A DNA stretch of 15,499 nucleotides from Thiomicrospira sp. UBA5634. GTDB lineage: Bacteria > Pseudomonadota > Gammaproteobacteria > Thiomicrospirales > Thiomicrospiraceae. The position numbers and the translations under genes are program-made. Under the pieces are notes generated by a model. The model was not told the origin of the DNA, ran no database searches, and saw nothing but the letters and a program-made list of their open reading frames with translations. Location of the stretch: the NCBI GenBank assembly GCA_002421475.1, contig DIJW01000192.1:1-15499 (forward strand), written 5' to 3'. Shown in pieces: positions 108 through 15,499 of the stretch (positions within the stretch are counted from its first letter, which is position 1; the number at the start of each line of letters is the position of its first letter).

Positions 108-961
108 TTAGCTTGGATAACATAATCGCGTTACGTCAGCAGATTCAGCAATGGAAACAGGCCGGTTTACGCGTTGGTTTTGTGCCGACAATGGGGAATT
201 TACATGCCGGGCATATTAGTTTATTAACACTGGCAAAACAACACGCTGATCGAGTGGTGAGCAGTGTGTTTGTAAATCCGCTGCAATTTGGCATCGGAGA
301 AGACTTTGATCGTTATCCGCGCACGTTGACGGAAGATAGTCAAAAATTAGCGTCAGCAGGTTGTGACGCGTTATTTGCGCCGAGTGTTGGAGAAATGTAT
401 CCGCAGGGTGCGCTGCAAAGCAAAGTTTGTGCACCGAATGGGCTGACTGAAGTTTTGGAAGGTGCCAGCAGGCCTGGTCATTTTGATGGCGTTACAACCG
501 TGGTGGCGAAGTTATTTAACTTGGTTCAGCCGGATGTGGCTGTATTTGGGCAAAAAGATTACCAGCAATGGCGGGTATTGCAAACCATGGTCAATGAACT
601 GAATTGGCCGGTTCAGATGATTAAAGCACCGATTGCCCGTGATATGGATGGCTTAGCATTGAGTTCGCGCAATCAATATTTAACCGAAGCGCAACGGCAA
701 GTTGCACCTAAGTTGTACGTGGTGTTGCAAGATCTCGGACAGGCTTTACGTTCCGGTAATCAAAACTTACGAGACTTGGAGCGTGCAGCAAGCGAACGTT
801 TATTGTTGGAGGGGTTTGATGCGGTGGATTACGTGGCTATCGTTGATTCGCAAACATTGCAACCCATCCAGTCCCTGCAGAATTCGGTCGTGATTTTGGC
901 AGTCGCTCGCTTAGGTTCTACTCGATTATTGGACAATATAGAATTGGATGATATTATTTAA
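104..961 (+). CDS. panC: Pantothenate synthetase (pantoate--beta-alanine ligase)
   Basis: A 285-residue protein, close to the usual length of about 283. It condenses pantoate and beta-alanine with ATP through a pantoyl-adenylate, in the cytoplasm. Visible family motifs are PTMGNLHAGH at residues 28-37, containing the HIGH-like nucleotide-binding HAGH; the RPGHFDGV pantoate-site block near residue 125; the VFGQKDYQQ block; and the SSRN loop that plays the KMSKS role. The ATG overlaps the panB stop and has only a poor Shine-Dalgarno of its own, consistent with coupling. The conserved RPGH motif is encoded through a copy of the window's repeated palindrome (468-477) and uses the only AGG arginine codon I see in this gene. 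panD, the source of beta-alanine, lies 1.6 kb downstream on the other strand. Confidence 0.97.
   Translation: MISLDNIIALRQQIQQWKQAGLRVGFVPTMGNLHAGHISLLTLAKQHADRVVSSVFVNPLQFGIGEDFDRYPRTLTEDSQKLASAGCDALFAPSVGEMYPQGALQSKVCAPNGLTEVLEGASRPGHFDGVTTVVAKLFNLVQPDVAVFGQKDYQQWRVLQTMVNELNWPVQMIKAPIARDMDGLALSSRNQYLTEAQRQVAPKLYVVLQDLGQALRSGNQNLRDLERAASERLLLEGFDAVDYVAIVDSQTLQPIQSLQNSVVILAVARLGSTRLLDNIELDDII
468..477. repeat. Palindrome copy, 9/10 match (GCAGGCCTGG), inside panC
   Basis: Matches CCAGGCCTGG except at the first base. It is read as S-R-P-G in panC, with AGG CCT in frame. Confidence 0.7.
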
Positions 962-977
962 TCGAATGATATTGTTT

Positions 978-989
978 ATTTGATCAAAT
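978..989. other. 12-bp perfect palindrome between panC and motA
   Basis: ATTTGATCAAAT is self-complementary and sits in the 62-bp gap between panC and motA, about 35 bases before the motA start. It could be an operator for a dimeric regulator or chance in AT-rich spacer. The halves abut, so it does not fit the FNR consensus (TTGAT, four bases, ATCAA). Confidence 0.25.
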
Positions 990-1023
990 CATCTTCTTTG
1001 AGTGCTGTTAAAAGGAATTCTGC

Positions 1024-1791
1024 ATGAGTTTTTCTACGCTGATTGGTTTATTGGCGGGTATGTTAATCGTAAGTTCTGCGATGGCGATGGGGTCATCAAT
1101 TTATCTGTTTGTCGATATTCCAGGGGTAATGATTGTTGTCGGCGGTACTTTAGCTGCGACCATGATTCGTTATTCAATGAAGGATTCGTTTGAAGCAATA
1201 GGTTTGTCATTTCGCGCAGTCAAGCTGACTAAAGAAACACAAGATTTAAAACAATTAATAGATATAACCGAAGATATGCTGCGTGCTTCACGCAAAAGTG
1301 GCATGTTAGCGTTAGAACACATTGAGGTCGACAATCAATTTTATCGTGATGGTGTACGAATGTTGGTTGATGGTTACGCGATAGAGTTAGTACAGAAAGC
1401 GCTTAAAGAACAAAATGCGTTATTTGTTGAGGTCGCTGAGACCAGTTCGGGTGTTTTTCGCGCAATTGGTGAAGCCGCTCCTGCATTTGGCATGATCGGT
1501 ACACTTGTTGGTTTAATCCAAATGTTGGCCAATTTAAATGATCCTTCTACAATTGGCCCAGCCATGTCAATTGCATTACTTACGACCTTGTATGGCGCTC
1601 TGATCGCTAATTTATTTGCCTTACCAATGGCGGATAAAATTGAGTCGTGGGCACATGATGAGTCTTATCGTCAGCACTTAATTATTGATGCAATGGATTG
1701 TATTGCACATGGTGTCAATCCAATTGTTATGCGTGATTTATTAGAGCCGTATATGCAAACACCAAAATTAAAAGAGGTGATTAATGGCTAA
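1024..1791 (+). CDS. motA: MotA/PomA-type flagellar stator protein (probably sodium-driven)
   Basis: A 255-residue inner-membrane protein of the MotA/TolQ/ExbB family, near the length of Vibrio PomA. It has hydrophobic segments near residues 3-22 and 30-48, a cytoplasmic loop from about 50 to 145, and two more segments around 150-172 and 178-201. The loop carries R90 and E98, matching the charged residues that contact the rotor protein FliG. Segment 3 reads PAFGMIGTLVGL, with the functional proline (P153) and T160; segment 4 has LLTTLYG (T187/T188). Threonines at these places are typical of sodium-type PomA, so sodium coupling is inferred. An AAAGGA ribosome site lies at 1011-1016. Its stop overlaps the motB start by 8 bp. 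No other flagellar gene is visible, as is common for stator genes. A non-flagellar relative is less likely. Confidence 0.92.
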   Translation: MSFSTLIGLLAGMLIVSSAMAMGSSIYLFVDIPGVMIVVGGTLAATMIRYSMKDSFEAIGLSFRAVKLTKETQDLKQLIDITEDMLRASRKSGMLALEHIEVDNQFYRDGVRMLVDGYAIELVQKALKEQNALFVEVAETSSGVFRAIGEAAPAFGMIGTLVGLIQMLANLNDPSTIGPAMSIALLTTLYGALIANLFALPMADKIESWAHDESYRQHLIIDAMDCIAHGVNPIVMRDLLEPYMQTPKLKEVING

Positions 1792-2509
1792 AAAACAGCG
1801 CCCTAAAATGCCTTGGTTAACCACCTATGCGGATATGGCCACGCTGTTATTGGCTTTTTTTATATTGCTGTTTACGATTTCAAATGTCGATAAAGCACGT
1901 TATGAAGAAATTGTGCGCTCCTTAACACTGACATTAACCAATTCGCCTGAGTTATCCGTGATGCAGCAAAGTTATTTTAATCCGGTACAACCAGGCCTAA
2001 TAGAGTTGATCCCGGATGCGACGCCGGCTGAAACACTTCTTGAACTCTATGAGATGTTGGCACTTACGTTTGAGAAAGAACGGCAAACTGACCAGTTACA
2101 AATGAACTTTGATGTGAATGAAGATCAGATTAAGATCGTTTTTCCCGAAGTGGTGGCGTTTGATTTGGGTAGCGCCGATTTACAACCACGCTTTGTGATG
2201 ATGCTGCGTAAATTTTCGTATTATTTGCGCGGTGATGTTAAGGTAAGGGTGATTGGGCACAGTGATCGGTTACCGATTATTGCCGGACGGTTTCGCTCAA
2301 ACTGGGAGCTCTCAAGTGCACGAGCAGCGTCTGTGATTGAGCAATTTATTCGGGATGGCGTGATCCATCCTTCTCAAGCAACCGCAATTGGTTTAGCCGA
2401 TACACAACCGATTTCTAAAGGCGATCGTATAGAAGATTATGCATTAAATCGTCGAGTTGAAATTATTATTCAGCGTGCTAAGTCGACAGAAAGTAACCAG
2501 ACCCCATAA
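1784..2509 (+). CDS. motB: MotB/PomB-type flagellar stator protein, OmpA-like C-terminus
   Basis: A 241-residue partner of MotA. A short cytoplasmic N-terminus (KKQRPK) leads into one membrane helix at about residues 12-33, beginning TTYADMATLLLAFF; D17 is the ion-carrying aspartate equivalent to D32 of E. coli MotB. After a periplasmic linker, residues from about 110 to 232 form an OmpA-like peptidoglycan-binding domain (IGHSDRLP, SSARAASV, NRRVEIII). The protein is clearly shorter than E. coli MotB (308), mostly in the linker and tail. Together with MotA it forms the ion channel that drives the motor and anchors to the wall. The ATG lies within the last codons of motA, implying coupled synthesis. 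Positions 1991-2000 carry a degenerate copy of the repeated palindrome, read as PGL. Confidence 0.93.
   Translation: MAKKQRPKMPWLTTYADMATLLLAFFILLFTISNVDKARYEEIVRSLTLTLTNSPELSVMQQSYFNPVQPGLIELIPDATPAETLLELYEMLALTFEKERQTDQLQMNFDVNEDQIKIVFPEVVAFDLGSADLQPRFVMMLRKFSYYLRGDVKVRVIGHSDRLPIIAGRFRSNWELSSARAASVIEQFIRDGVIHPSQATAIGLADTQPISKGDRIEDYALNRRVEIIIQRAKSTESNQTP
1991..2000. repeat. Degenerate palindrome copy (CCAGGCCTAA), inside motB
   Basis: Matches the 10-bp palindrome at 8 of 10 positions, including the AGGCCT core. It is read CCA GGC CTA (PGL). Confidence 0.4.
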
Positions 2510-2511
2510 CA

Positions 2512-2521
2512 CCAGGCCTGG
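2512..2521. repeat. Exact palindrome CCAGGCCTGG between convergent motB and panD
   Basis: An exact copy in the 20-bp gap between the motB stop and the panD stop; self-complementary over 12 bp (2511-2522). It nearly fills the convergent junction. Confidence 0.85.
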
Positions 2522-2529
2522 TTTAATGT

Positions 2530-2919
2530 TTAAACAGCAGTTTTGAGCTGTTTAGGGATGAAGTTACGTGTATTGGTAATACGATTGTCGGCATCTACAT
2601 ACACTAATACCGGCTGATAGGTTTCAGCTTGTTTGTCTTCCAATACGCAATAGGTTGCGATAATCAATAAATCACCCGGGTCAGCTTTATGAGCTGCCGC
2701 GCCATTCACTGAGATAATGCCGGTGTGTTCTTCAGCACGAATCGCATAGGTGGTAAAACGCTCACCATTGCGAATGTTATAGATCTGAATTTGTTCATAT
2801 TCACGGATACCGGCGGTATCGAGCAGGTGCCCATCAATCGCGCAAGAACCTTCATAGTCCAACTCAGAGTGGGTTGTAGTCACTCGGTGTAGTTTGGATT
2901 TTAATAGGGTGATTTGCAT
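2530..2919 (-). CDS. panD: Aspartate 1-decarboxylase (pyruvoyl enzyme) proenzyme
   Basis: A 129-residue protein that makes beta-alanine from aspartate, the second substrate of PanC. The start chosen is the ATG at 2917-2919, giving [12 protein letters not shown], the standard PanD N-terminus; the frame runs upstream to a TTG at 2961 but those 14 codons do not resemble the family and lack a ribosome site. The self-cleavage site is visible as Y22-E-G24-S25-C: cleavage before S25 creates the pyruvoyl cofactor. Other conserved blocks are [21 protein letters not shown] and [10 protein letters not shown]. It is transcribed towards motB, so it is not in the panBC operon; a TATAAT lies 52 bases upstream, just beyond the ppc terminator. 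Confidence 0.96.
2531..2554. other. Inverted repeat at the 3' end of panD
   Basis: TAAACAGC (2531-2538) and GCTGTTTA (2547-2554) form an 8-bp stem with an 8-base loop, overlapping the panD stop and last codons. No T-run follows on either strand, so it is at best a weak 3'-end hairpin for motB or panD. Confidence 0.3.
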
Positions 2920-2970
2920 GCTATTTCTCGCCATCCGTTTGTTAATAAACTGGTCAATCAAAGGGAAGTC

Positions 2971-2976
2971 ATTATA
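2971..2976 (-). promoter_or_regulatory. Putative -10 element for panD
   Basis: The minus strand reads TATAAT here, 52 bases before the panD ATG and just after the ppc terminator. The -35 region is T-rich with no good TTGACA, so only the -10 is supported. A separate promoter makes sense because ppc transcripts should end just upstream. Confidence 0.45.
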
Positions 2977-2985
2977 CCCGAAAGC

Positions 2986-3029
2986 GTAAAAATAAAAAAC
3001 GCTTCATTAAATAAGCTAATGAAGCGTTT
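2986..3029 (-). terminator. Intrinsic terminator of ppc
   Basis: On the minus strand a perfect 13-bp stem (arms 3029-3017 and 3009-2997, AAACGCTTCATTA and its complement) with a 7-base loop is followed by a TTTTTTATTTTTA tract (2999-2987). It begins 34 bases after the ppc stop. On the plus strand the run after the stem is weaker. Confidence 0.9.
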
Positions 3030-3062
3030 AGATTTTATTATGCAGCTATGCTAAAGCGGCTA

Positions 3063-5867
3063 TTAACCGGTGTTGCGCATTCCGGCCGCAATGGCATTAA
3101 TGCTGTTTAGCAAGGGTTTCAACCAGCGTTCACGTTCTTGCTCGGTTGAGTCTTGCGACTTGTAGCGTTTAAGTAACACGATTTGGATGTGGTTGAGTGG
3201 ATCCAAATAAGGGTTACGGCGTTTGAGCGAAAGTGCATTAGTCGGCGTTTCAGCCATTAAGAATGGATTACCGCTGACAGTTAAACAGTTTGATACAGTG
3301 CGTTGATGTTCTTCAGCAATCATGTTGTAAATATGGTTTGCCTGAACAATATCCTGCGCTAATGCGCTGTATTCTTTACCGGTTTTTAGTTCGGTTTTGA
3401 ATAACGCCATTTGAATGTTACTCAATAAAGCACGGAAAAACGGCCATTGTGCATACATTTGTTTAAGCTGTTCTTCGCCATGCTGTTGTGCCCATTTATC
3501 AAGCGCATAACCTGTTCCAAACCAAGCCGGGAAAGTTAAACGTGCTTGCGCCCAACCAAAAACCCACGGAATTGCGCGAATAGAAGACTTGGATAAATTG
3601 CCTTTTTTACGATGAGAAGGGCGTGATCCAATATTCAGCAAGCCGATTTCGTTTACCGGTGTTGACTCATAGAAAAACTTAAAGAAGCCTTCCGTGTTAT
3701 CGGTTAATTCACGATAAGCGTGTTCACCATCCTGAGCTAATTGCTGCATGATCTCAAGATGCGCCGGATTATCTTCAATTACCGGTTTAACTAAACACGT
3801 ACTCGCTTTCATTAAACCGGTCACACCTAATGATAGCTCATAGGTCGCGGTTTCAGTATTGCTGTATTTGTATGACAATACTTCGCCTTGCTCAGTGAAT
3901 TTAATTTCACCGCGCACAGTACCGGTTGGTTGTGACAAAATCGCAATATGAGTTGGGCCGCCTCCACGTCCGATTGTGCCGCCACGTCCGTGGAATAGGC
4001 GACATTCGATGCCACATTCATCCGCCAACTTCATGATTTGTTGTTGTGCTTGATATAAGTTCCATGCTGACGCCAGGTTGCCACCGTCTTTGGCAGAGTC
4101 GGAATAACCGAGCATAATTTCTTGTTGGTTACCGGATGCTTTTAATAATGCATGGTAGGTTGGATTATTAAACAATGCCGAAGTCACCGGTACGATATGA
4201 CTTAAATCTTCAATCGTTTCAAATAACGGTGAAATATGGATGTCGCAATAGGGTTCGCCAGCGTTGTAACCCGCCAGGCCTGCTTGGTGTGCTAAAAACA
4301 AGACTTCCATCACATGGCTGGCATGATGAGTCATTGAGATAACGTAGTTGTTAAAAGCCAAGGGACTGATTTCTTTGCGCATTTCACGCAAGACGTTAAA
4401 CACCTCCAACACTTCTCGTGTCATATCTTTGAGCGCTAAATGTTGGGTGTCGATAATGGTAGCAGAGGCGACATGACTGGCCAGAAGTTGTAAACGCTCT
4501 TGCTCATTCAGTTTGGTATAGTCAACGCCTAAGTGTGACAATAAATCCGTTACCGCTTCAGAGTGTACGGTGGACTCTTGGCGAATATCCAAACGCATTA
4601 AATAGAAACCGAACGTTTGTACCAATCGAATTAAATCTTTTAAATCGGCATTGGCAAGAATATCATCACCATGGCCACACAAAGATTCATGAATTAATTG
4701 TAAATCGGCAAGAAACTCATCTTCTGAACTGTATGCAAAGCGGCTTTTTTCAACCGGCTTGTCTTCATTGAGTTTGGCTTCAATATAATTCAGATTTTGC
4801 TGTAAACGACCGTGCATTAAATATAGCAAGCGGCGATAAGGTTCATCTTTAAAACGTTCAGAACGACGATGGAAAACTTTTTCCAGCAGGTCGGCATCAA
4901 CAATGGTCGCGCGATTGATAATTTCTTGTTTGATATCGGCAATGTGGCGCGAATGAGTCAGCATTGAACTGAGTTCAAACAAACGGCGCTGATATTCATA
5001 AATGACGGCGCGTGATTGCAAATACAGCGCTTGTGCCGTGGTGTCATGGGTGACGAAAGGATTGCCATCGCGGTCACCGCCGATCCAAGAGCCAAACGTC
5101 AAGAAGTTTGGTGTTTCGATGTGATCGTTAGGGTAGTTGCGTTCTAATGCACGTTCCATATAACGATACACTTGCGGTACGGCTTTAAATAAAGACTGAC
5201 GGAAGTAGTAAATACCGTTGCGAATTTCGTCGCTGACAGTCGGTTTTGACTGGCGAACTTCATCCGTTTTCCATAATACCTGGATTTGATATTTAAGTTT
5301 TTTGATAACTTCTTCACGACCATACGGATTGTTGTAGGTGTCCGCTTCATTTAAATCTTCTAACGTCACGAAAATACGACGTAAGTTTTCCATTACCGCA
5401 CGACGTTTTGATTCGGTCGGATGGGCGGTAAAAACCGGAATATAACGTAATTTGTTGAGAAGGGTGGTGAGCTCTTGTGCGCTCATTCCTTGGTCTTTGA
5501 ATTCGTTAATGGTGCTGAGCATTGAGCCCATCCATAATGGGCCGTCAGACTTTAACTGACTTTGGCGGTCATGGTATTGATGTTCTTCTTCAGCTAAGTT
5601 CGCGAGACTGAAGTAGATGTTGAATGCACGGATAATAAGGATTAAATCATCAGGATTTTGTTGCTGGATAAACTCACTGAGTTCGGCTCTTAAAACCGGA
5701 TCATCTTGTTTGCGCAGCTGAATATAACCCATGCGGAGTTTTTCGACTGCCGCTAACATTTCCGGCCCTATTTGGCTTTCAATGACTTCACCAAGCAAGC
5801 GGCCAAGTAGTTTGACACGGGCTCTAAGTTGCTTATCATTCGGGTCATTAGTGATGATCTTTGTCAT
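3063..5867 (-). CDS. ppc: Phosphoenolpyruvate carboxylase
   Basis: A 934-residue cytoplasmic enzyme adding bicarbonate to PEP to give oxaloacetate, feeding the TCA cycle and amino-acid synthesis; somewhat longer than E. coli PEPC (883). Signature blocks in order: FTAHPTESKRR with catalytic H149; FGSWIGGDRDGNP; GYSDSAKDGG; the glycine-rich FHGRGGTIGRGGGP loop; QGEVLSYKYS; IGSRPSHRK; and RAIPWVFGWAQ. The C-terminus ends MRNTG, matching the NTG end that packs into the active site. The first ATG aligns with the family N-terminus (a KLLGRLLGEVI helix at about 19-29), although no good Shine-Dalgarno precedes it. An extended -10 promoter lies about 33 bases upstream and a strong terminator follows, so it looks monocistronic. 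A one-mismatch palindrome copy (4274-4283) is read as AGL. Confidence 0.98.
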   Translation of the reverse strand: MTKIITNDPNDKQLRARVKLLGRLLGEVIESQIGPEMLAAVEKLRMGYIQLRKQDDPVLRAELSEFIQQQNPDDLILIIRAFNIYFSLANLAEEEHQYHDRQSQLKSDGPLWMGSMLSTINEFKDQGMSAQELTTLLNKLRYIPVFTAHPTESKRRAVMENLRRIFVTLEDLNEADTYNNPYGREEVIKKLKYQIQVLWKTDEVRQSKPTVSDEIRNGIYYFRQSLFKAVPQVYRYMERALERNYPNDHIETPNFLTFGSWIGGDRDGNPFVTHDTTAQALYLQSRAVIYEYQRRLFELSSMLTHSRHIADIKQEIINRATIVDADLLEKVFHRRSERFKDEPYRRLLYLMHGRLQQNLNYIEAKLNEDKPVEKSRFAYSSEDEFLADLQLIHESLCGHGDDILANADLKDLIRLVQTFGFYLMRLDIRQESTVHSEAVTDLLSHLGVDYTKLNEQERLQLLASHVASATIIDTQHLALKDMTREVLEVFNVLREMRKEISPLAFNNYVISMTHHASHVMEVLFLAHQAGLAGYNAGEPYCDIHISPLFETIEDLSHIVPVTSALFNNPTYHALLKASGNQQEIMLGYSDSAKDGGNLASAWNLYQAQQQIMKLADECGIECRLFHGRGGTIGRGGGPTHIAILSQPTGTVRGEIKFTEQGEVLSYKYSNTETATYELSLGVTGLMKASTCLVKPVIEDNPAHLEIMQQLAQDGEHAYRELTDNTEGFFKFFYESTPVNEIGLLNIGSRPSHRKKGNLSKSSIRAIPWVFGWAQARLTFPAWFGTGYALDKWAQQHGEEQLKQMYAQWPFFRALLSNIQMALFKTELKTGKEYSALAQDIVQANHIYNMIAEEHQRTVSNCLTVSGNPFLMAETPTNALSLKRRNPYLDPLNHIQIVLLKRYKSQDSTEQERERWLKPLLNSINAIAAGMRNTG
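4274..4283. repeat. Palindrome copy, 9/10 match (CCAGGCCTGC), inside ppc
   Basis: One mismatch, at the last base. On the ppc strand it is read GCA GGC CTG (AGL). Confidence 0.65.
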
Positions 5868-5899
5868 AAGAAATATCTATCCGTATAAAAATTTGCACA

Positions 5900-5908
5900 A
5901 TTATAGCA
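5900..5908 (-). promoter_or_regulatory. Extended -10 promoter for ppc
   Basis: The minus strand reads TGCTATAAT: a perfect TATAAT preceded by the TGn extended -10 motif. No good -35 is seen at 16-18 bases. Initiation would fall near 5893, giving a leader of about 25 bases before the ppc ATG. Confidence 0.6.
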
Positions 5909-5970
5909 GATTTCAATAAGTTGAAGTTGGATCAAGAAGAAAACAGCGCGAGTTTGTGCGGTTTGAAGAG

Positions 5971-6002
5971 CTTAGGACGTATTATGCAGTATACGCCCTA
6001 AG
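5971..6002 (-). terminator. Putative terminator hairpin downstream of ppa
   Basis: CTTAGGACGTAT (5971-5982) and ATACGCCCTAAG (5991-6002) pair over 12 bp with an 8-base loop. The single non-Watson-Crick position becomes a G-U pair only in the minus-strand RNA, which suits a hairpin for ppa transcripts. Only a poor U-tract follows (CTCTTC), so it may be a 3'-stabilising hairpin or Rho-assisted stop. Confidence 0.45.
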
Positions 6003-6029
6003 TAGAGATGCGATTAGTTTAGGGGTTTA

Positions 6030-6554: not shown

Positions 6555-6577
6555 AATAAGTTCCTTAAATTGGTTGT

Positions 6578-6608
6578 TAAAACAAAACCACCCGCAGAGC
6601 GGGTGGTT
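6578..6608 (-). terminator. Intrinsic terminator of fbp
   Basis: A 10-bp stem, AACCACCCGC (6586-6595) with GCGGGTGGTT (6599-6608), and a 3-base loop; in the minus-strand direction it is followed by TTTTGTTTT. It lies 22 bases after the fbp stop and 31 bases before the ppa start. Confidence 0.92.
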
Positions 6609-7733: not shown

Positions 7734-9182
7734 ATGAAGTATATCGTTAAATTTTTTCCCGAAATTATGATTAAAGGTGACAGCGTCAAAAAGAAAATGG
7801 TGCGTCACCTGCATGAAAATCTTAAACGGCTGTTAGCGCGTTTGGATGAAGATATTCACACGCAAAAATTTTGGGATAAGATCGAAGTGTTCGTTCCCGA
7901 GTTAAAACCAGGCCTGGTGGTGGCGGTGCGCCAATGTTTATTGAGCACACCTGGAATTGAGCAAATATGGCAGGTGCAGCAGTTTCCGATCACCGATTTA
8001 CAAAGTGTGATTGATAAAGTGGTACCGTTTGCCTTGCCGTTGATTAAAGACAAAACCTTTGTGGTACGAGCTAAACGCACTGGCGAACATTCTTTTACGT
8101 CGATGGAGTTGGAGCGTGAAACCGGTTATGCGTTAGTGCAGCAAGGCGAATCTAAAGGCGTCAGTCTGCATCATCCTGAAGTAAAAATTGAGTTTGATGT
8201 GTTTGATAAGTATTTAAATATTATTGAAGCACGTTATAGCGGGTTAGGTGGTTATCCGCTTGGTTCGCAAGGAGAGGCGTTATCGTTAATGTCAGGTGGT
8301 TTTGATTCGACAGTGGCGAGCTATTTGGCGGTAAAACGCGGTATAAAAACCCACTTTATCTTTTTTAACCTAGGCGGAACAGCACATGAACTAGGGGTTA
8401 AACAAGTGGCGATTTATTTATGGAACCGTTTTGAAGCCTCTCATCGCATTAAGTTTATTTCGGTACCATTTGATGGTGTGGTGGCGGAGCTGTTTAACTC
8501 GGTGCATGAAAGTTATATGGGCGTGATGCTAAAACGTTTGATGTTAATAGCGGCGGAGCGGGTTGCGCGAGATTTGGATTATCCGGCATTAATTACCGGC
8601 GAAAGTGTCGCGCAGGTGTCGAGCCAAACATTAAAAAATTTAGCGGTGATTGATGAAGTGAGTCATATGCTGGTGTTGCGTCCGTTAGCGATGATGAATA
8701 AACCCGACATTATTCAGTTGGCAGAGCAAATAGGCACGCGGCATTTTGCCGAGTCGATGCCGGAATATTGTGGAGTTATTTCACAAAACCCGGTGACGCA
8801 TGCGTCATTTGATCGTACGCTAAAAGAACATCATAAATTTAATATGCAGGTGCTGGATGAGGCGTTAGCGAACAAAACCATTCAGCCAGTTGATCAACTA
8901 CTGGAGCAGATTGTCGCTGCGCCGCCGATTGAAGTGGTTAAGACATTACAACCCGGTGATGTATTGGTGGATATTCGTGCTGACATTGAGCAGCAGCGCT
9001 CACCGTTAGAAGGGGCGTTACACATTCCGTTTCACTTGCTTAATCAGCAAGCGAAAAAATGGTCTGACAATACGCGTTATTTATTGTATTGCCAGAAAGG
9101 GGTGATGAGTCAGTTGCATGCGCAATATTTGCGTGATCAGGGGGTGCATAATGTCTTTGTATACCGACCTGAGACTAACTAA
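7734..9182 (+). CDS. thiI: tRNA 4-thiouridine sulfurtransferase ThiI with C-terminal rhodanese domain
   Basis: A 482-residue protein, the same length as E. coli ThiI. It adenylates U8 of tRNA and transfers sulfur to form s4U, and in enterobacteria also feeds sulfur to ThiS for thiazole synthesis. Domains in order: a ferredoxin-like N-terminus (MKYIVKFFPEIMIKG), THUMP to about residue 165, a PP-loop ATPase with S187-GGFDST, and a rhodanese-like domain after about 400. C346 (EYCGVIS) and the rhodanese cysteine C453 (YCQKGVMS) correspond to the redox pair C344/C456 of E. coli. The rhodanese extension is typical of gammaproteobacteria and lacking in many other bacteria. No clear Shine-Dalgarno precedes the ATG, yet the N-terminus matches the family. 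An exact palindrome copy (7908-7917) is read KPGLV. Confidence 0.97.
   Translation: MKYIVKFFPEIMIKGDSVKKKMVRHLHENLKRLLARLDEDIHTQKFWDKIEVFVPELKPGLVVAVRQCLLSTPGIEQIWQVQQFPITDLQSVIDKVVPFALPLIKDKTFVVRAKRTGEHSFTSMELERETGYALVQQGESKGVSLHHPEVKIEFDVFDKYLNIIEARYSGLGGYPLGSQGEALSLMSGGFDSTVASYLAVKRGIKTHFIFFNLGGTAHELGVKQVAIYLWNRFEASHRIKFISVPFDGVVAELFNSVHESYMGVMLKRLMLIAAERVARDLDYPALITGESVAQVSSQTLKNLAVIDEVSHMLVLRPLAMMNKPDIIQLAEQIGTRHFAESMPEYCGVISQNPVTHASFDRTLKEHHKFNMQVLDEALANKTIQPVDQLLEQIVAAPPIEVVKTLQPGDVLVDIRADIEQQRSPLEGALHIPFHLLNQQAKKWSDNTRYLLYCQKGVMSQLHAQYLRDQGVHNVFVYRPETN
7908..7917. repeat. Exact palindrome CCAGGCCTGG inside thiI
   Basis: An exact copy, self-complementary over 12 bp (7907-7918), read CCA GGC CTG G (PGL) in the THUMP region of ThiI. 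Confidence 0.8.
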
Positions 9183-9191
9183 CTGTTTGCA

Positions 9192-9201
9192 CCAGGCCTG
9201 G
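9192..9201. repeat. Exact palindrome CCAGGCCTGG between convergent thiI and mltF
   Basis: An exact copy, self-complementary over 12 bp (9191-9202), nine bases after the thiI stop in the 52-bp convergent junction. No T-run follows on either strand, so it is not a standard terminator by itself. Confidence 0.85.
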
Positions 9202-9220
9202 TTGAAGGTGTGAGTTAGAG

Positions 9221-9237
9221 TAACAATGAAATTGTTA
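9221..9237. other. Small hairpin at the end of the mltF-like gene
   Basis: TAACAAT and ATTGTTA form a 7-bp stem with a GAA loop, overlapping the mltF stop codon. It is AT-rich with no T-run; at best a weak 3'-end structure. Confidence 0.25.
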
Positions 9238-10698
9238 AGGGAAAGCGTTTCGCGCCAGTTTTTTGTCCAATTCGACCTTTTGTGCCGCCTCAATTGATAC
9301 GCGGTGTTTTTGGATGCTGATAACGTAGTTGACCGTTTCAAGACCAATGTGGCGGCGGGCGAGTTGCTCAACGTGATAAAACCATTTATAGGGGTCGAGT
9401 CCTTGACGTTCGGCCAGTCGTTGCAGTTGGCGGATGCGTGAGGGACCTGCATTATAAGCAGCAAGGGTAAAGTTTAGGCTTTCATCCTCTGTGTAGTCAG
9501 GGGTGCTAAAGTAATGCTCCTTGAGGTGCGCAAGGTATTTCACGCCAGCATGAATATTATTTTCAATATTTTCAATTTCATCAATATCAACGGCGCTGGA
9601 GCGTGCAGTACTGGGGCGCACTTGCATGATGCCAACGGCGCCTTTATTACTGGTTGTGTTTTGCTGAAATCGTGATTCCTGATAAGCGGTAGCGGCAATT
9701 AATAACCAGTCCATGTCATAAAAATCGGCGTAGAGTTGAAAATAGGGTTTTAGATAATCAACCTGATTTAACACATCTTGTGATAGTGGGCGCTGGATCC
9801 ATTGATCACTTTCAAAATATTTACGATAAAGTACGTTTCCCAAGAAACGTCCCGGTTTGGCATAACGATGGATATAACGATTTAATGAAGCGCGAAGTTG
9901 CGGATTCTGCTTTCTTACCGCCCAGGCAATTTGGCCATTGTGGTGAAAAATGATGTTAGGGTGTGTCACGATGTTGCTGAAGACGGTTTGCCAAACGTTG
10001 GCAATATGGTCATCCACCACGGTGAAATCGTAAATTTCCGCATTCACCATTTCGAGTAAATCTTCGGCATCTAAAATCGGATTGGCCTTGATGATTTCAA
10101 TTGGCGCCAGGCCTGCTCGTCCAAGCGCTTGGTTTACCATTTCTAAATGAATAATGTAACTGCTGTCGGCCACCACAATAATTCGCTGACCGGATAGATC
10201 CTCCAGTCGCTCCACTTTGGGTGATTTGGGATGAGAGATTAAGATTTCAGATACATTGCTGATATAGGGTTGGCTAAAGGCCATTTCTGATTCGCGGCCG
10301 GGTGTCATGGTTAAACCGGCTGCAATCATATCGCCTTGTCCTTGTAATAGGCGATTAACTAATTGGTTAAAGGGTACAACAATAAATACTAGGTGTGTTT
10401 GGTGTTGTTTGCGCAATGGGCCGCGATTTAAATAATCTTCGTATGATTTAAGCAGTTCATATTCGATGCCGCGAGTGCCATCGTCGGCTAAAAAGTAGTT
10501 GGTACGGTTATAACTGACTAAAACTCGGATGATGCGGCGTTCACGCATGGCATCAAAGTCATCAAAAAAAGGCTGGTTAATGCGATTGTAGAATGAAGTT
10601 AAGTCATCATCAAATGCAGCTTTGGGCGGCGCTTTTTGGGTAGCGCACACTATCAAAGCAATAAACATTAGGATTGTCGAAAGCGTAATTCGTAGCAA
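9235..10698 (-). CDS. mltF: MltF-like membrane-bound lytic murein transglycosylase (solute-binding domain plus SLT domain)
   Basis: A 487-residue exported protein that should cleave peptidoglycan glycan strands, forming 1,6-anhydromuramic ends. The N-terminus has one arginine and a hydrophobic stretch (about 6-17). A family-3 solute-binding-like domain spans about 55-290 (IIRVLVSYNRTNYFL, DMIAAGLTMTPGR). An SLT domain follows at about 315-440: AYQESRFQ with catalytic E341, GAVGIMQV, HAGVKYL and AAYNAGPSR. This architecture is that of MltF (E. coli 518 residues). The start is a TTG at 10696-10698 with TTAAGG seven bases upstream; the first ATG (residue 11) would cut the signal sequence. The candidate lipobox LIVC has Val at -1, which is atypical; cleavage after V-C-A by signal peptidase I is an alternative. 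The gene is divergent from the flavoprotein gene at 10795. Confidence 0.88.
   Translation of the reverse strand: MLRITLSTILMFIALIVCATQKAPPKAAFDDDLTSFYNRINQPFFDDFDAMRERRIIRVLVSYNRTNYFLADDGTRGIEYELLKSYEDYLNRGPLRKQHQTHLVFIVVPFNQLVNRLLQGQGDMIAAGLTMTPGRESEMAFSQPYISNVSEILISHPKSPKVERLEDLSGQRIIVVADSSYIIHLEMVNQALGRAGLAPIEIIKANPILDAEDLLEMVNAEIYDFTVVDDHIANVWQTVFSNIVTHPNIIFHHNGQIAWAVRKQNPQLRASLNRYIHRYAKPGRFLGNVLYRKYFESDQWIQRPLSQDVLNQVDYLKPYFQLYADFYDMDWLLIAATAYQESRFQQNTTSNKGAVGIMQVRPSTARSSAVDIDEIENIENNIHAGVKYLAHLKEHYFSTPDYTEDESLNFTLAAYNAGPSRIRQLQRLAERQGLDPYKWFYHVEQLARRHIGLETVNYVISIQKHRVSIEAAQKVELDKKLARNAFP
10107..10116. repeat. Palindrome copy, 9/10 match (CCAGGCCTGC), inside mltF
   Basis: One mismatch, at the last base. 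On the gene strand it is read GCA GGC CTG (AGL), as in ppc. Confidence 0.65.
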
Positions 10699-10744
10699 GT
10701 TTTTGCCTTAAGATAATAAAACCAATTTTAATTCTATTGAGTGT

Positions 10745-10753
10745 TGGCATAAT
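10745..10753 (+). promoter_or_regulatory. Extended -10 promoter for the flavoprotein gene
   Basis: TGGCATAAT is a 5/6 match to TATAAT with a TGn extension, 41 bases before the ATG at 10795. The -35 region at 17 bases (ATTTTA) is poor. The placement suits a short leader in the divergent mltF/flavoprotein gap. Confidence 0.45.
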
Positions 10754-10794
10754 TTGCTAGCGATTCTTTAGTCGCCAGAACGAAGAGAGAAACA

Positions 10795-12171
10795 ATGAGA
10801 CGTGTAAAATTTGCCATTATGGGCGCCGGAAGGGTTGGTTTAACAGCACTAAGTTTAATTAGAAAACAAACAGATAATTTTGTAGTGATTCAGTCTGGGG
10901 CGTTTGGTACTACTTGTGCACGTGTCGGTTGTATGCCATCGAAAGCGCTTATTCATGCGGCCAACCATTTTTATCATGCAACGCATGCAGCAGAGTTTGG
11001 AGTGCGTGGCGGTGAAAAGTTGAGTGTAGATCGAGCATCGGTTATGCAACGAGTACGTGCATTTCGAGATCGCTTTACCGGCGGTATTCAGCAAGGTTCT
11101 ACCGATACGCTGGATGAAAAAAATCTTATTCTCGGCGCGGCGAAATTTGTTGCGCCGAATGTGTTGGAAGTAAATGGTGAGCAAATTGAGGCTGAACGTA
11201 TCATTATCGGCAGCGGTTCGCGGCCGTTTGTGCCGCAGGCCTGGCGGGATGCATTGGGTGACAAATTACTCACCAGTGATGAAATTTTCGATTTGGCGCA
11301 ACTGCCAAAACGAGTGGCGGTAATTGGTTTAGGGGTGATTGGTCTTGAGCTGGGGCAGGCGATGTCTCGCCTTGGCGTAGAAGTCGTTGGTTTTGAGGCG
11401 GTGCAAGCGTTAGGCGGTTTAATGACAAGCGCAGCGATTAATCAAACTGAGCAGTTGTTGACGCGAGAGTTTCCAATATATCGTGGTCAAGCAGTGGATG
11501 TTCGGCGTGAAGGTGAGCAAGCTGTCGTTGTGCGCGGCGATGAAGTATTTGAGTTTGATGCGGTGTTAGTTAGTATTGGGCGTCGTGCAAATATTGATAA
11601 TCTTGGTTTAGACAAACTCGGTGTTGCATTAAATGAACGTGGTTGGCCGAACTTTAATCCGCAAACTATGCAGGTTGAAAACCTGCCGGTATTTATCGCC
11701 GGCGACGCGAGTGGTTACAGACCAATTTTGCATGAAGCAGGTGAGGAAGGTAGGATTGCAACGTTTAATGCAATTAGTTATCCGCAAATTAAGGCGCATC
11801 GACGCAAAACGCCTTTGGGCATAACGTTTACCGAACCAGGCCTGGCGTTTTTCGGTCAACGTTATAACGAATTGGATTTAACTAAAACAGCCGTGGCGGA
11901 ATTTGATTTACATCGTAATAATGGTCGGGCGATTGTGATGGGTGAAGATCACGGCGTTATTGTGTTGTTTGCCGATCGTATTTCAGCGAAATTATTAGGT
12001 GGTGAGTTGGTTATGCCGCAGGCGGAACATCTTGTGCATCTTTTAAATTGGGCGATTGAAATGGGATTAACAGTTGATCAAATTTTAGATATGCCTTTTT
12101 ATCATCCGGTGCTGGAAGAGGCAGTCGAGTCGGCATTAAAAATGTTGCGTTCGGCATTAAGGGACGTTTAA
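10795..12171 (+). CDS. Dihydrolipoyl dehydrogenase-family FAD/NAD(P) disulfide oxidoreductase
   Basis: A 458-residue member of the class I pyridine nucleotide-disulfide oxidoreductases. FAD motif GAGRVG at residues 10-15; redox-active pair C41/C46 in TTCARVGCMPSKAL; a second dinucleotide fold VIGLGVIGLE with an acidic residue, E201, at the strand end, which points to NAD(H) rather than NADP(H); the FAD motif FIAGDASG; and the C-terminal dimerisation domain with the catalytic pair H437 and E442 (HPVLEE). The TTCARVGCMPSK form belongs to a lipoamide-dehydrogenase-like subfamily distinct from the canonical E. coli Lpd (GVCLNVGCIPSK). Odd points: Q33 sits where the FAD ribose-binding Glu is usual. 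No 2-oxoacid dehydrogenase subunits are nearby, so the substrate is uncertain and I give no symbol. A GAAGAGAGA ribosome site precedes the ATG. It contains two palindrome copies (11235 and 11836). Confidence 0.88.
   Translation: MRRVKFAIMGAGRVGLTALSLIRKQTDNFVVIQSGAFGTTCARVGCMPSKALIHAANHFYHATHAAEFGVRGGEKLSVDRASVMQRVRAFRDRFTGGIQQGSTDTLDEKNLILGAAKFVAPNVLEVNGEQIEAERIIIGSGSRPFVPQAWRDALGDKLLTSDEIFDLAQLPKRVAVIGLGVIGLELGQAMSRLGVEVVGFEAVQALGGLMTSAAINQTEQLLTREFPIYRGQAVDVRREGEQAVVVRGDEVFEFDAVLVSIGRRANIDNLGLDKLGVALNERGWPNFNPQTMQVENLPVFIAGDASGYRPILHEAGEEGRIATFNAISYPQIKAHRRKTPLGITFTEPGLAFFGQRYNELDLTKTAVAEFDLHRNNGRAIVMGEDHGVIVLFADRISAKLLGGELVMPQAEHLVHLLNWAIEMGLTVDQILDMPFYHPVLEEAVESALKMLRSALRDV
11235..11244. 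repeat. Palindrome copy, 9/10 match (GCAGGCCTGG), inside the flavoprotein gene
   Basis: One mismatch, at the first base. It is read CAG GCC TGG (QAW), a different frame from the PGL copies. Confidence 0.7.
11836..11845. repeat. Exact palindrome CCAGGCCTGG inside the flavoprotein gene
   Basis: An exact 10-bp copy read CCA GGC CTG G (PGL), about 600 bp after the previous copy in the same gene. Confidence 0.8.
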
Positions 12172-12217
12172 GCGTCAACTAAGTTTTGGATTTTAGACAT
12201 AATTTTCGTTGAAACCT

Positions 12218-12244
12218 TTGACTTGGTGGCGACTCTGCTATAAT
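12218..12244 (+). promoter_or_regulatory. Sigma-70-type promoter of rnr-rlmB
   Basis: TTGACT (12218-12223) and a perfect TATAAT (12239-12244) are separated by 15 bases; the -10 also has a TGC extension (12236-12238), which can compensate for the short spacer. Initiation near 12251 would give a leader of about 130 bases before the rnr GTG. It is the most convincing promoter in the window. Confidence 0.8.
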
Positions 12245-12256
12245 CCCACTTGTTTT

Positions 12257-12352
12257 TAACCATGTTTTATCAAACATAGGTTATTGGGGTGCGCAAAAGT
12301 GCCCCGAAAATATTTAACCAGGCCTGGTGGACGGCTGACAGAACCCCGCCAC
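12257..12352 (+). promoter_or_regulatory. Structured 5' leader of rnr with three tandem hairpins
   Basis: Hairpin 1: TAACCATGTTT (12257-12267) pairs with 12272-12283 over 11 bp with one bulged A and a TATC loop. Hairpin 2: GGGGTGC (12286-12292) pairs with GTGCCCC (12299-12305) using two G-U pairs, with loop GCAAAA. Hairpin 3: 12327-12334 pairs with 12346-12352 over 7 bp with a bulged A. An exact repeat palindrome (12318-12327) lies between hairpins 2 and 3. None has a T-run, so they are not terminators. I do not recognise a known riboswitch. A cis-regulatory or RNase-sensitive leader is inferred from fold potential only. Confidence 0.45.
12318..12327. repeat. Exact palindrome CCAGGCCTGG in the rnr leader
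   Basis: An exact copy, self-complementary over 12 bp (12317-12328), about 55 bases before the rnr start, in the transcribed leader. Confidence 0.85.
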
Positions 12353-12381
12353 ATGGGCAATAAACTTTAAGATGGTATCGA

Positions 12382-14697
12382 GTGACTACAGAAACAAACC
12401 CTTCAGTATATGATCCTCATGCGCAGCGCGAAGCTGAAAAGTATGAAAACCCCATTCCAAGTCGTGAGTTTATTCTCCAACATTTAGAGCAGGTCAAAAA
12501 ACCTTTGACGCTCGATCAATTGGCGAAAGACTTGGATGTGTCTGATGAAGATGAAGAACGCTTTGAAGCGTTATCACGTCGTTTAAAAGCCATGTTACGT
12601 GACGGACAGCTTATCAAAAACCGCCGAGGTGCGTTTGGCTTGATCCAAAAGATGGACTTAATCAAAGGGCGTGTTATTGGACATCCTGATGGTTTTGGCT
12701 TTTTAAGCACCGAATCAATGGATGAAGACTTATTCCTCTCAGCGCAAGAAATGCATAAAGTTTTGCATGGCGATGAAGTTATTGTGTCGATTATTGGCGA
12801 GGATCGCCGTGGTCGCAAAGAGGCCAGTATTGTTGAGGTGACGCGTCATAATTCAACCCAATTGGTTGGTCGTGTGCATATTGAAGACGGTTTAGCTTGG
12901 GTGCATCCGAACAACAATCGAATTACTCAGGATGTGTTTGTACCGGCTGATGGTTTAATGGATGCAAAAGAAGGCCAAATTGTTTTGGTTGATATTTTGC
13001 AGCAACCGTCAAAACGACATGGCCCAGTTGGTCGAATTGTTGAAGTAATGGGTGACTATATGGCGCCCGGAATGGAAATCGACACCGCGATTCATGCGTT
13101 TGGTATTCCGAATGAGTGGCCGCCGGAGCTGTTGGCAGAGTTAGCCGCTATTCCAAATGAAGTTACTGAAGCGGATTTGGAAGGGCGTAAAGATTTGCGC
13201 CATCTACCGTTAATGACTATTGATGGTGATGATTCGAAAGATTTTGACGATGCGGTCTTTGCGAAACGCCGTAAAAATGGTTGGCGTTTGGTGGTGGCGA
13301 TTGCGGACGTATCGCATTATGTTAAGCCGGGTACTGAGCTGGATAAAGAAGCTTATAAACGTGGTAACTCGGTGTATTTCCCGCAACGTGTTATTCCGAT
13401 GTTGCCTGAAAAGTTATCAAATGAATTGTGTTCATTAAACCCGCATGTTGATCGCTTGTGTATGGTGTGCGACATGAATATTACCGATGACGGGCAGCTA
13501 GAACGCAGCCAGTTTTATCATGCGGTAATGAACTCAAAGGCGCGACTGACCTATAACAAAGTTCACGATATGTTAACCAATCCGGCCAGTGAGCATCGTG
13601 AGACGTTTGCTGAGATGGTTGAACATGTTGAAGCGTTAAATGAGTTGTATCAAGTATTGGCCAAATCACGCGCCGCACGTGGTGCGTTAGAGTTTGATAC
13701 GGTTGAAACCCAAATTGTGTTTGATGCAGAGCGTAAAATCGACAAAATTATTCCGGTGATGCGCAACGAAGCGCATAAGCTGATTGAAGAATGTATGTTG
13801 ATGGCTAACGTCGCTACCGCGCGTTTCTTGAAATGGCATAAGTTACCGATTTTATATCGTGTGCATGAGTCACCAAAAGAAGAAAAACTCGTTAAGTTGC
13901 GCGGTTTCTTGGCGGACTTTGGTTTAAGTTTGGGTGGCGGTGATGAGCCGACTGCGCAGGATTATGATGTGGTGATGACTAAGGTTAAGGATCAGCCGTA
14001 TGCTAATTTGGTGCAAACCGTCATGTTACGCAGTATGAATCAAGCGGTATATCAGCCTGAAAATAAAGGCCACTTCGGCTTAAATTATGAGCATTACGCC
14101 CATTTCACGTCACCGATTCGCCGTTATCCTGATTTGTTAATTCATCGCGCAATTCGCCAGGCCTGGTTAAAGCAGGGCGTTGAAAATTTCGTGTATAACG
14201 AACAGCAAATGGAAACCTTTGGTCGCCATTGTTCGGATACCGAACGTCGCGCGGATGAGGCAACACGTGATGCCACTACTTTCCTTAAATGTGAGTTCTT
14301 GTCACATCGTTTAGGTGAGCAGTATCAAGGTGTTATTTCAGCGGTGACCAGTTTTGGTATGTTCGTTGAACTGGCGGATTTGTATATCGAAGGCCTAGTG
14401 CATATTACGGAGTTAGGCGAAGATTATTTCCACTACGATGCGGTTCGTCATTGTTTAAAAGGCGAACGTACCGGCATGACCTATCGCTTGGGTGATCGTG
14501 TTGAAGTACAAGTCGCCCAAGTCGTTTTAGACGATCGTAAAGTAGATTTACGTTTAATTCGTCATTTAGCGCCGGCGCAAGCTGAGGCTACAGAGGCTGA
14601 TGCTGATAATGCAGAAGCTCCGGCTGACGGCAAGAAAAAACGTCGTTCGCGTAATTATCGTAAAAAACGTAAACCGCAGGCTAAGGCTGAAGCATGA
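12382..14697 (+). CDS. rnr: Ribonuclease R (3'-5' exoribonuclease)
   Basis: A 771-residue RNase II/R-family enzyme that degrades structured RNA processively from the 3' end and acts in rRNA quality control. Domains: winged helix (about 25-85); two cold-shock domains (first at GRVIGHPDGFGFL, 96-108); RNB catalytic domain (about 265-590) with D281, D287, D289 and D290 in IDGDDSKDFDD as metal ligands and the YAHFTSPIRRYPD block; S1 domain (about 645-730); and an acidic/alanine stretch followed by a Lys/Arg-rich tail (KKKRRSRNYRKKRK), as in RNase R but not RNase II. The start is GTG: it is the only start codon between the upstream in-frame stop (12361) and the conserved REAEKYENPIPSREF block. The ribosome site is weak (AAGATGG). 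rlmB overlaps by 4 bp. An exact palindrome copy (14157-14166) is read QAW. Confidence 0.97.
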   Translation: MTTETNPSVYDPHAQREAEKYENPIPSREFILQHLEQVKKPLTLDQLAKDLDVSDEDEERFEALSRRLKAMLRDGQLIKNRRGAFGLIQKMDLIKGRVIGHPDGFGFLSTESMDEDLFLSAQEMHKVLHGDEVIVSIIGEDRRGRKEASIVEVTRHNSTQLVGRVHIEDGLAWVHPNNNRITQDVFVPADGLMDAKEGQIVLVDILQQPSKRHGPVGRIVEVMGDYMAPGMEIDTAIHAFGIPNEWPPELLAELAAIPNEVTEADLEGRKDLRHLPLMTIDGDDSKDFDDAVFAKRRKNGWRLVVAIADVSHYVKPGTELDKEAYKRGNSVYFPQRVIPMLPEKLSNELCSLNPHVDRLCMVCDMNITDDGQLERSQFYHAVMNSKARLTYNKVHDMLTNPASEHRETFAEMVEHVEALNELYQVLAKSRAARGALEFDTVETQIVFDAERKIDKIIPVMRNEAHKLIEECMLMANVATARFLKWHKLPILYRVHESPKEEKLVKLRGFLADFGLSLGGGDEPTAQDYDVVMTKVKDQPYANLVQTVMLRSMNQAVYQPENKGHFGLNYEHYAHFTSPIRRYPDLLIHRAIRQAWLKQGVENFVYNEQQMETFGRHCSDTERRADEATRDATTFLKCEFLSHRLGEQYQGVISAVTSFGMFVELADLYIEGLVHITELGEDYFHYDAVRHCLKGERTGMTYRLGDRVEVQVAQVVLDDRKVDLRLIRHLAPAQAEATEADADNAEAPADGKKKRRSRNYRKKRKPQAKAEA
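14157..14166. repeat. Exact palindrome CCAGGCCTGG inside rnr
   Basis: An exact 10-bp copy read C CAG GCC TGG (QAW) shortly after the conserved SPIRRYPD block. Confidence 0.8.
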
Positions 14698-15428
14698 GTG
14701 CAGATACGCTTTATGGTGTTCACGCCATTGAGCGTCTGCTAAAGCAGTCGCCGCATCTGATTTACCAAGTTGTTTTTTGTGAAGGGCGTTTAAACCCGCG
14801 CCAACAAAACCTGTTGCAGCAAGCGCAAGTGTTGGGGGTGAAAACGCGAGTTGAATCTAAGGCATTTTTTAATAAGCTCGATGGCGCCCACCAAGGCGTG
14901 ATGGCTGAGGTTGCTCCGCAAGCTGAGTTTAGTGAGGCTGATTTAGTTGAATTGGTCACACAAAATACGCAGGCGCTGATTTTGTTTTTGGATGAAGTGC
15001 AAGACCCGCATAATCTGGGTGCGATTCTGCGCACCGCGGATGCCGCTGGTGTTGATGCGGTGGTTATCCCGAAAAACAATTCCGTCGGCCTTAATGCAAC
15101 CGTGCGTAAAGTTGCTTGCGGTGCAGCGGAAACAGTGCGTTTAGTGGCGGTAACAAACTTGAGTCGAACGCTTAACAGCCTACAACAAGCCGGTTTGTGG
15201 GTCGTTGGGTTGGCAGGTGAAACCGATAAAACTATTTACCAAGCTAGCTTTAGTGGGCGTTTAGGTTTGGTATTAGGGGCAGAGGGGTCAGGATTGCGTC
15301 ATCTAACACGTCAGCATTGTGATGAAGTTGTTGCCATTCCTATGCTGGGTGTGGTCGAAAGTTTAAATGTATCGGTCGCAAATGGTGTGGTGCTTTACGA
15401 AGTTTTGCGGCAGCGTGGAAAAGTTTAA
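14694..15428 (+). CDS. rlmB: 23S rRNA (guanosine-2251-2'-O)-methyltransferase RlmB
   Basis: A 244-residue SPOUT (TrmH-type) methyltransferase, near E. coli RlmB in length (243), which methylates the ribose of G2251 in the P-loop of 23S rRNA. An N-terminal substrate-binding region (YGVHAIERLL, about residues 7-16; GAHQGVMAEV) precedes the knotted catalytic domain with its three motifs: DPHNLGAILRTADAAG (104-119, with N107 and R113), LGAEGSGLR (194-202), and IPMLGVVESLNVSVAN (215-230). The ATGA overlap with rnr (14694-14697) shows co-transcription and coupling; rnr-rlmB adjacency is common in gammaproteobacteria. A long palindrome follows 48 bases after the stop. Confidence 0.97.
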   Translation: MSADTLYGVHAIERLLKQSPHLIYQVVFCEGRLNPRQQNLLQQAQVLGVKTRVESKAFFNKLDGAHQGVMAEVAPQAEFSEADLVELVTQNTQALILFLDEVQDPHNLGAILRTADAAGVDAVVIPKNNSVGLNATVRKVACGAAETVRLVAVTNLSRTLNSLQQAGLWVVGLAGETDKTIYQASFSGRLGLVLGAEGSGLRHLTRQHCDEVVAIPMLGVVESLNVSVANGVVLYEVLRQRGKV

Positions 15429-15475
15429 CCCACCAGGTTGATCCCTAATGGTTACAGCATTAAAACTTAAAAAGC

Positions 15476-15499
15476 GCATGCACCAGGCCTGGTGCATGC
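15476..15499. terminator. 24-bp perfect palindrome at the window edge, containing an exact repeat copy; possible terminator for a leftward gene
   Basis: GCATGCACCAGG (15476-15487) is the exact complement of CCTGGTGCATGC (15488-15499), with no spacer; CCAGGCCTGG occupies 15483-15492. It may extend further, since the window ends here. On the minus strand the stem is followed by GCTTTTTAAGTTTTAA, so it could terminate a gene entering from the right. Whether a T-run follows on the plus strand for rlmB cannot be seen. Confidence 0.6.

Follow-up and report, generated by a model that had tools for sequence, protein, structure and literature searches.

Introduction

DNA uptake sequences have been described for the Pasteurellaceae and Neisseriaceae (PMC1939737; this and all later articles are cited from excerpts), and the cyanobacterial palindrome HIP1 is a second kind of short motif that recurs throughout genomes. 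Here we compare both with a palindromic 10-mer, CCAGGCCTGG, and its 12-mer extension, ACCAGGCCTGGT, which are iterated through a stretch of 15,499 nucleotides (the window; contig DIJW01000192.1, assembly GCA_002421475.1) of Thiomicrospira sp. UBA5634 and through the rest of its genome.

The neisserial DNA uptake sequence (DUS) resembles this motif in its hundreds to thousands of copies per genome and in its dialects, of which usually one dominates a genome (two in one case) and which share a short core (PMC3630211). Copies are fewer here, with 191–1,025 in the stamped genomes versus 943–5,918 for DUS (PMC3630211), and the motif differs from DUS in being palindromic in most stamped species. The pasteurellacean uptake signal sequence (USS) is likewise an abundant short motif, is replaced by another type in a sub-clade, and occurs in coding DNA somewhat less often than expected (PMC2346458), but it lacks palindromic symmetry and has an unrelated sequence. 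For USS, too, the receptor is only a predicted one (ComN/PpdA; PMC12616744). HIP1 and the alternate HIPs share with our motif a GC-rich palindromic shape, hundreds of copies and deviations at the outer bases, and other palindromes substitute for HIP1 in some relatives (PMC4390886). The differences are that HIP1 reads GCGATCGC, that no link to the three methyltransferase families tested was found here, that a non-palindromic replacement exists, and that spacers past stop codons are favoured in most samples.

An earlier note on the window, made from its letters alone, had likened the motif to HIP1 and to uptake sequences in abundance, with a different sequence and no named function, and this description holds. 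The two analogies can now be separated, since features of uptake sequences are present and the methyltransferase link of HIP1 was not found in three families. Full-text literature searches, with subscription literature and preprints outside their scope, gave no report of the CCAGGCCTGG motif among the matches listed, and no match for ACCAGGCCTGGT.

Results and discussion

Abundance and shape of the motif

The iterated palindrome is real and genome-wide. The source genome (G000; 2,007,832 bp in 235 contigs) contains 815 exact copies of CCAGGCCTGG, about one per 2.5 kb, and no copy of a reversed-pattern control. The comparison with a Markov expectation that the earlier note had called for gave a count far above it: in 161 kb, comprising the window and 20 contigs (one of them reading N), 61 copies were found versus 0.10 expected under a third-order model, an excess of ~640-fold, and the 12-mer ACCAGGCCTGGT occurred 50 times versus 0.01 expected. 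Among all palindromic 8-, 10- and 12-mers with at least five copies in these 161 kb, none unrelated to ACCAGGCCTGGT was comparable. The enrichment also extends beyond the window, as the density over 41 sampled contigs was no more variable than Poisson (chi2 = 29.0, 40 degrees of freedom).

Perfect, one-off and two-off matches to ACCAGGCCTGGT numbered 50, 22 and 18, respectively, whereas 89 other palindromes with the same half-site composition had means of 0.01, 0.29 and 4.1 and maxima of 1, 3 and 16; three-off matches were at control level (51 versus 45). In 435 kb of G000 the numbers were 153 perfect, 59 one-off and 50 two-off. Because the deviations fall mostly on the outermost two positions at either end, CAGGCCTG can be regarded as a near-invariant core. 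The flanks are graded, toward ACCACCAGGCCTGGTGGT in G000 and G001 and toward A/T tracts in G020 and G029; the A/T-rich flanks of the latter two recall those of USS. GGCC and GATC were among the scarcer palindromic tetramers in most sampled genomes, and the GGCC-centred palindrome is thus abundant against that scarcity.

Distribution across the family and replacement by other dialects

The family-wide search covered 62 genomes (numbered G000 onward), and a search of the order returned the same 62. The label Hydrogenovibrio for relatives is inferred, and genus g3 is unnamed. At least 200 copies of CCAGGCCTGG (234–856) were found in 26 of the 62 genomes, hereafter called palindrome-rich: all nine Thiomicrospira, seven of 11 Hydrogenovibrio, nine of 32 in g3 and the single g4 genome. 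The other 36 comprised one genome with 106 copies, five with 15–44 and thirty with 0–8. In 28 genomes from other families of the class, counts were 0–35 for CCAGGCCTGG and 0–13 for the reversed control. The palindrome is a family trait. It is probably also the older state, because a tree of six gene families and 29 genomes (rough, with an uncertain root, and with four of 33 genomes dropped for missing data) places it in Thiomicrospira, Hydrogenovibrio, g3 and g4.

In some relatives another stamp takes the place of the palindrome. The dialects, which beside ACCAGGCCTGGT include ACCGGCCGGT and AATCTGCCAGGTTGGG, are nearly mutually exclusive. G029 contains 30 copies of ACCGGCCGGT in 60 kb and 1,025 genome-wide, with A/T tracts on either side (L087, L088, L141) and no CCAGGCCTGG; each of the other 61 genomes has at most 15 copies of ACCGGCCGGT. 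The Hydrogenovibrio genomes G030, G032 and G034 bear a non-palindromic stamp, AAAATCTGCCAGG[T/C]TGGGG. The non-palindromic 16-mer AATCTGCCAGGYTGGG was found 191, 192 and 223 times in these three genomes, respectively, where CCAGGCCTGG occurs 0, 1 and 0 times, and 0–1 times in the other 59. Copies of the non-palindromic AAAATCTGCCAGGTTGGGG are dispersed and partly arranged as inverted pairs in G032 and G034 (L082, L083, L084, L157, L183-L192), and in G030 (L080, L081) its first T is replaced by C. On L080 and L081, unrelated 10-mers also recur 26–28 times in 40 kb and probably belong to a repeat array such as CRISPR.

G005 is mixed, with ten copies of CCAGGCCTGG and eight of GCAGGCCTGC in 60 kb, and G083 has nine copies of GCAGGCCTGC in 20 kb. 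In G019, G023 and G033 the CAGGCCTG core is retained between different flanks. No equally strong stamp was seen in 18–40 kb of G010, G014, G015, G016, G035, G041, G042, G043, G074, G082, G085, G086 and G089, where weak excesses were limited to GCTTAAGC and GCCATGGC in G016 and G-runs in G086. A 20 kb sample of G011 likewise gave no strong stamp and a single palindrome, although this genome has 346 copies, which shows that sparse stamps may escape a short sample. In G027 (L126) the words AAACTCAACA and AACAGGCCGG are repeated with 5–7 copies in 20 kb, perhaps as another dialect.

Persistence of sites around comEC

The earlier note had also suggested a comparison at orthologous sites, and such sites do recur at the same codons across genera. 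Homologous genes from the surroundings of comEC were aligned for 33 genomes, with all dialect cores counted as sites. In 376 of 1,393 comparisons a site was shared within two residues versus 20.6 from random placement, an excess to which protein conservation contributes. At one variable place in ComEC, CAGGCCTG occurs in 16 genomes of three genera, 11 of them with the full CCAGGCCTGG, and is read Q-A-W. At the same place, G030, G032 and G034 carry their 18-mer in reverse complement, read P-T-W-Q, with CCTGG shared in the alignment. Because these three genomes are close kin, this swap counts as one event.

Location of sites relative to genes

With genes called by a simple longest-ORF rule, the 435 kb of G000 (183 sites, six of which at contig ends were left out of the random-placement test) contained 0.32 sites per kb in coding DNA, 1.03 in tandem, 1.10 in divergent and 4.79 in convergent spacers. 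Compared with random placement, sites were in excess in convergent (18 versus 1.5) and tandem spacers (20 versus 7.8) and depleted in coding DNA (130 versus 164 expected), and 28 of the 47 spacer sites were centred at most 40 bp past a gene end. The replacement dialects show the same contrast. In G029, ACCGGCCGGT reached 7.67 copies per kb in convergent spacers versus 0.29 in coding DNA. For the 18-mer in G032 the values were 3.00 and 0.06, of which only the contrast between classes is meaningful, because the choice of stretches partly followed copies already known, and two stretches share 5 kb. Divergent spacers of G001 and G029 contained no sites; an impression from 158 kb of G000 that its divergent spacers are also free of copies fell at 435 kb.

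Genic copies use all reading frames. The palindromes inside G000 genes show no positional trend. Genic 18-mers of G032 are few and tend to lie near the start of the gene, with 7 of 13 located in the first fifth.

A probable DNA uptake sequence

We consider it rather probable that the palindrome is a DNA uptake sequence, i.e. a self-tag, of naturally competent Thiomicrospira and their relatives. Abundance, dialects, a non-palindromic dialect, clustering past stop codons and paired copies together look like the signature of uptake sequences (PMC3630211, PMC2346458). The persistence of sites between genera, the swap at the comEC site and the even spacing in G020 (see below) also speak for this reading. 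The type IV pilus or competence machinery would include a DNA-binding protein that recognises the motif on extracellular DNA, and tagged DNA from kin would be taken up and recombined preferentially. This uptake bias would spread and maintain the copies by molecular drive, with selection against costly genic sites. Changes in receptor specificity would give rise to dialects, as in Neisseriaceae, and with a palindrome each copy could be read on either strand. It is about an even call whether the Thiomicrospira-Hydrogenovibrio family also represents a third, independently evolved uptake-sequence lineage. Its tag would be the first palindromic one, exchanged in some species for another palindrome and in one Hydrogenovibrio subclade for a tag of 18 bp without palindromic symmetry.

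ComEC is encoded in all 26 palindrome-rich genomes, and prepilin-type proteins were found in ten of ten genomes searched (G000 not among them). A fast-changing prepilin locus lies next to a gene that we take to be miaB-like in G036, G030, G032, G034 and G041, which between them carry the palindrome, the 18-mer or neither. The prepilin-type clusters at L253 1259-6278 (G036) and L254 2652-6234 (G032) are possible competence pilus components.

Several results weigh against an uptake function. Competence genes hardly discriminate, since ComEC is also present in 30 of the 36 other genomes (Fisher p = 0.035, with misses partly due to incomplete genomes). ComP_DUS (PF16732), the family of the neisserial DUS receptor, had no match over the cut-off in the 62 genomes, nor in 14 control genomes, so this search had no positive control; one sub-threshold match was found in G016. 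No co-evolving receptor was evident at the examined prepilin locus, where divergence within a dialect equals that between dialects: one prepilin was 33 percent identical between G036 and G020, both with the palindrome, and 44 percent between G036 and G032, across dialects. The locus is therefore a lead only. Because the receptor was not found, we infer the uptake function with somewhat better than even confidence. Among the matches listed in our literature searches, which were shallow, no uptake experiment in these genera appeared, and the known uptake sequences treated in the excerpts of PMC2346458 are not palindromic.

The positional data also contain unfavourable points. Divergent spacers of G000 are enriched too (9 versus 3.3, p = 0.006), the spacer bias of G020 is weak (0.80 sites per kb in convergent spacers, 0.64 in divergent spacers and 0.24 in coding DNA), and the 60 kb sample of G005 has no spacer excess, with two of 37 CAGGCCTG in spacers. 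Even spacing was not significant in the first 443 kb of G028 (P = 0.20). For the in-situ dialect swap there is a single coding site, noticed after the fact, and elsewhere the two stamps mostly fall at different places. The other two genes with an internal 18-mer gave no match, and among genes with a downstream 18-mer and a sampled ortholog, a palindrome was present in the orthologous spacer for two of 13 (2 of 40 comparisons). Finally, contig L067 of G000, which carries phage tail genes (PHROGs tail matches), was the only one of the 41 sampled contigs without CAGGCCTG; this would favour an uptake sequence, but one motif-free contig among 41 is within chance.

Alternative explanations

The motif could instead be the regularly spaced binding site of an abundant chromosomal protein, such as a nucleoid-associated, segregation or repair factor, with the dialects reflecting changes in that protein. 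We regard this as unlikely. A palindrome would fit a dimeric protein, sites are kept at orthologous places, and in the first 278 kb of G020 the spacing was more even than random (coefficient of variation 0.69; 0.0006 of simulations were as even). However, a tag that the cell can do without would better explain the non-palindromic dialect, the clustering past stop codons and the lack of an evident stamp in samples of 16–40 kb from relatives such as G041 and G043 than would an essential role in the chromosome. A candidate protein was neither found nor excluded.

Rather more doubtful is an origin like that proposed for HIP1 (compare Elhai on cyanobacteria), in which a DNA methyltransferase acting on an inner site (GGCC, AGGCCT or CCWGG) would make and keep the palindrome through methylation-directed mismatch repair or Vsr-like repair. 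The palindromic form, a density on the order of one copy per 1–2.5 kb and the outer-base deviations do resemble HIP1, and the GGCC-specific enzyme of Anabaena belongs to PF02086 (PMC4390886), the family of D12-type methyltransferases that has one match in G000 (C225:5568-6131, minus strand). Yet with matches taken at E <= 0.001, those below the cut-off included, no family was associated with the palindrome. PF00145 was found in eight of 26 palindrome-rich versus 16 of 36 other genomes (Fisher p = 0.30), PF01555 in 10 versus 14 (p = 1.0) and PF02086 in six versus four (p = 0.30). None of the nine Thiomicrospira had a PF00145 match, and all three families were absent from G029 and from eight of the 26 palindrome-rich genomes (G002, G003, G020, G037, G039, G087, G088, G011). 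This negative result covers three families, with others such as PF02384 not searched, and the presence of a family gives no specificity. Vsr was detected in one palindrome-rich genome (G036) versus four of the 36 others, and one group of relatives has a non-palindromic 16-18-mer in place of the palindrome.

It is very improbable that the copies are transcription terminators or other RNA hairpins that spread near gene ends. The enrichment past stop codons and between convergent genes would suit them, and two of six folded stretches at spacer copies of the window were more stable than shuffled sequences (15460-15499, plus strand, z = -3.95; 2490-2545, minus strand, z = -2.64). But the other four folds were unremarkable (z = -0.7 to 1.1), 130 of the 183 sampled copies are genic, and T-runs beside copies showed no excess over random places (44 of 183 versus 1,970 of 8,200).

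A Chi-type recombination site is hardly credible. Escherichia coli Chi is GCTGGTGG, which the half-site GCCTGGTGG resembles, and CCTGGTGG, with 61 copies compared with 11 of Chi itself, was the commonest one-base Chi variant in the samples of G000 and G001; however, 53 of these 61 lie at an AGGCCT within the palindrome and eight elsewhere, Chi works in one orientation and has no need of a palindrome, and the G029 dialect lacks a Chi-like half-site. We rejected this reading because half-sites are not enriched on their own. A viral origin was also rejected; in a viral collection, 20 stretches contained an exact match to the 14-mer CACCAGGCCTGGTG, each at a single place.

As none of the three methyltransferase families tested, Vsr, Chi and terminators fits, a protein that reads the motif is left as the explanation.

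Copies in the window

All seven exact, four one-mismatch and one two-mismatch copies reported in the earlier note were found again (Table 1), as was the extension of five exact copies to the 12-mer. A further two-mismatch match at 3522 is within chance. These 13 matches with at most two mismatches compare with a mean of 2.81 and a maximum of nine in 200 dinucleotide shuffles, none of which reached 13. Three of the seven exact copies are genic; the other four are intergenic, including two located between convergent genes.

Table 1 Copies of the palindrome in the 15,499-nucleotide window of Thiomicrospira sp. UBA5634.
Positions	Match to CCAGGCCTGG	Form	Extends to ACCAGGCCTGGT	Location
468..477	one mismatch	GCAGGCCTGG, core CAGGCCTG kept		in panC
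1991..2000	two mismatches	CCAGGCCTAA		in motB-like gene; decayed copy or chance
2512..2521	exact	within ACCAGGCCTGGT	yes	convergent spacer, motB-like gene (ends 2509) / panD (minus strand, ends 2530)
4274..4283	one mismatch	CCAGGCCTGC, core CAGGCCTG kept		in ppc
7908..7917	exact	ACCAGGCCTGGTGGT	yes	in thiI
9192..9201	exact	ACCAGGCCTGGT	yes	convergent spacer, thiI (ends 9182) / mltF-like gene (minus strand, ends 9235)
10107..10116	one mismatch	CCAGGCCTGC, core CAGGCCTG kept		in mltF-like gene
11235..11244	one mismatch	GCAGGCCTGG, core CAGGCCTG kept		in dihydrolipoyl dehydrogenase gene
11836..11845	exact			in dihydrolipoyl dehydrogenase gene
12318..12327	exact	ACCAGGCCTGGTGG	yes	spacer, dihydrolipoyl dehydrogenase gene (ends 12171) / rnr (starts 12382)
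14157..14166	exact			in rnr
15483..15492	exact	centre of 24-bp perfect palindrome 15476-15499	yes	~55 bp past rlmB stop codon

The 24-bp palindrome stops exactly at the window end and may be genuine or an assembly effect. The genes of the window are ordinary by NCBIfam (panC, motB-like, panD, ppc, fbp, thiI, mltF-like, dihydrolipoyl dehydrogenase, rnr and rlmB), and two further open reading frames are presumably a motA-like gene and an inorganic pyrophosphatase gene. The MltF-like protein shares 74 percent identity with its counterpart on a metagenome contig of Thiomicrospira, the nearest relative with a name. That the copies are scattered over genes and spacers, with surroundings unlike a mobile element, stands as first described. 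No Rfam family reached the gathering threshold within the window.

Implications

If the palindrome is an uptake sequence, the third lineage with such tags would consist of free-living chemolithoautotrophs with both palindromic and non-palindromic dialects, and self-tagging of DNA would be a trait that arises repeatedly. The change of symmetry of a self-recognition code could then be followed in this family as a natural series, and laboratory species would become available for studying how a receptor evolves jointly with its thousand sites in the genome. The motif would also give a starting point for gene transfer in sulfur oxidisers that fix carbon. Should it not be an uptake sequence, it would remain a code spread over the whole genome, whose dialects have been swapped and for which no reader is known.

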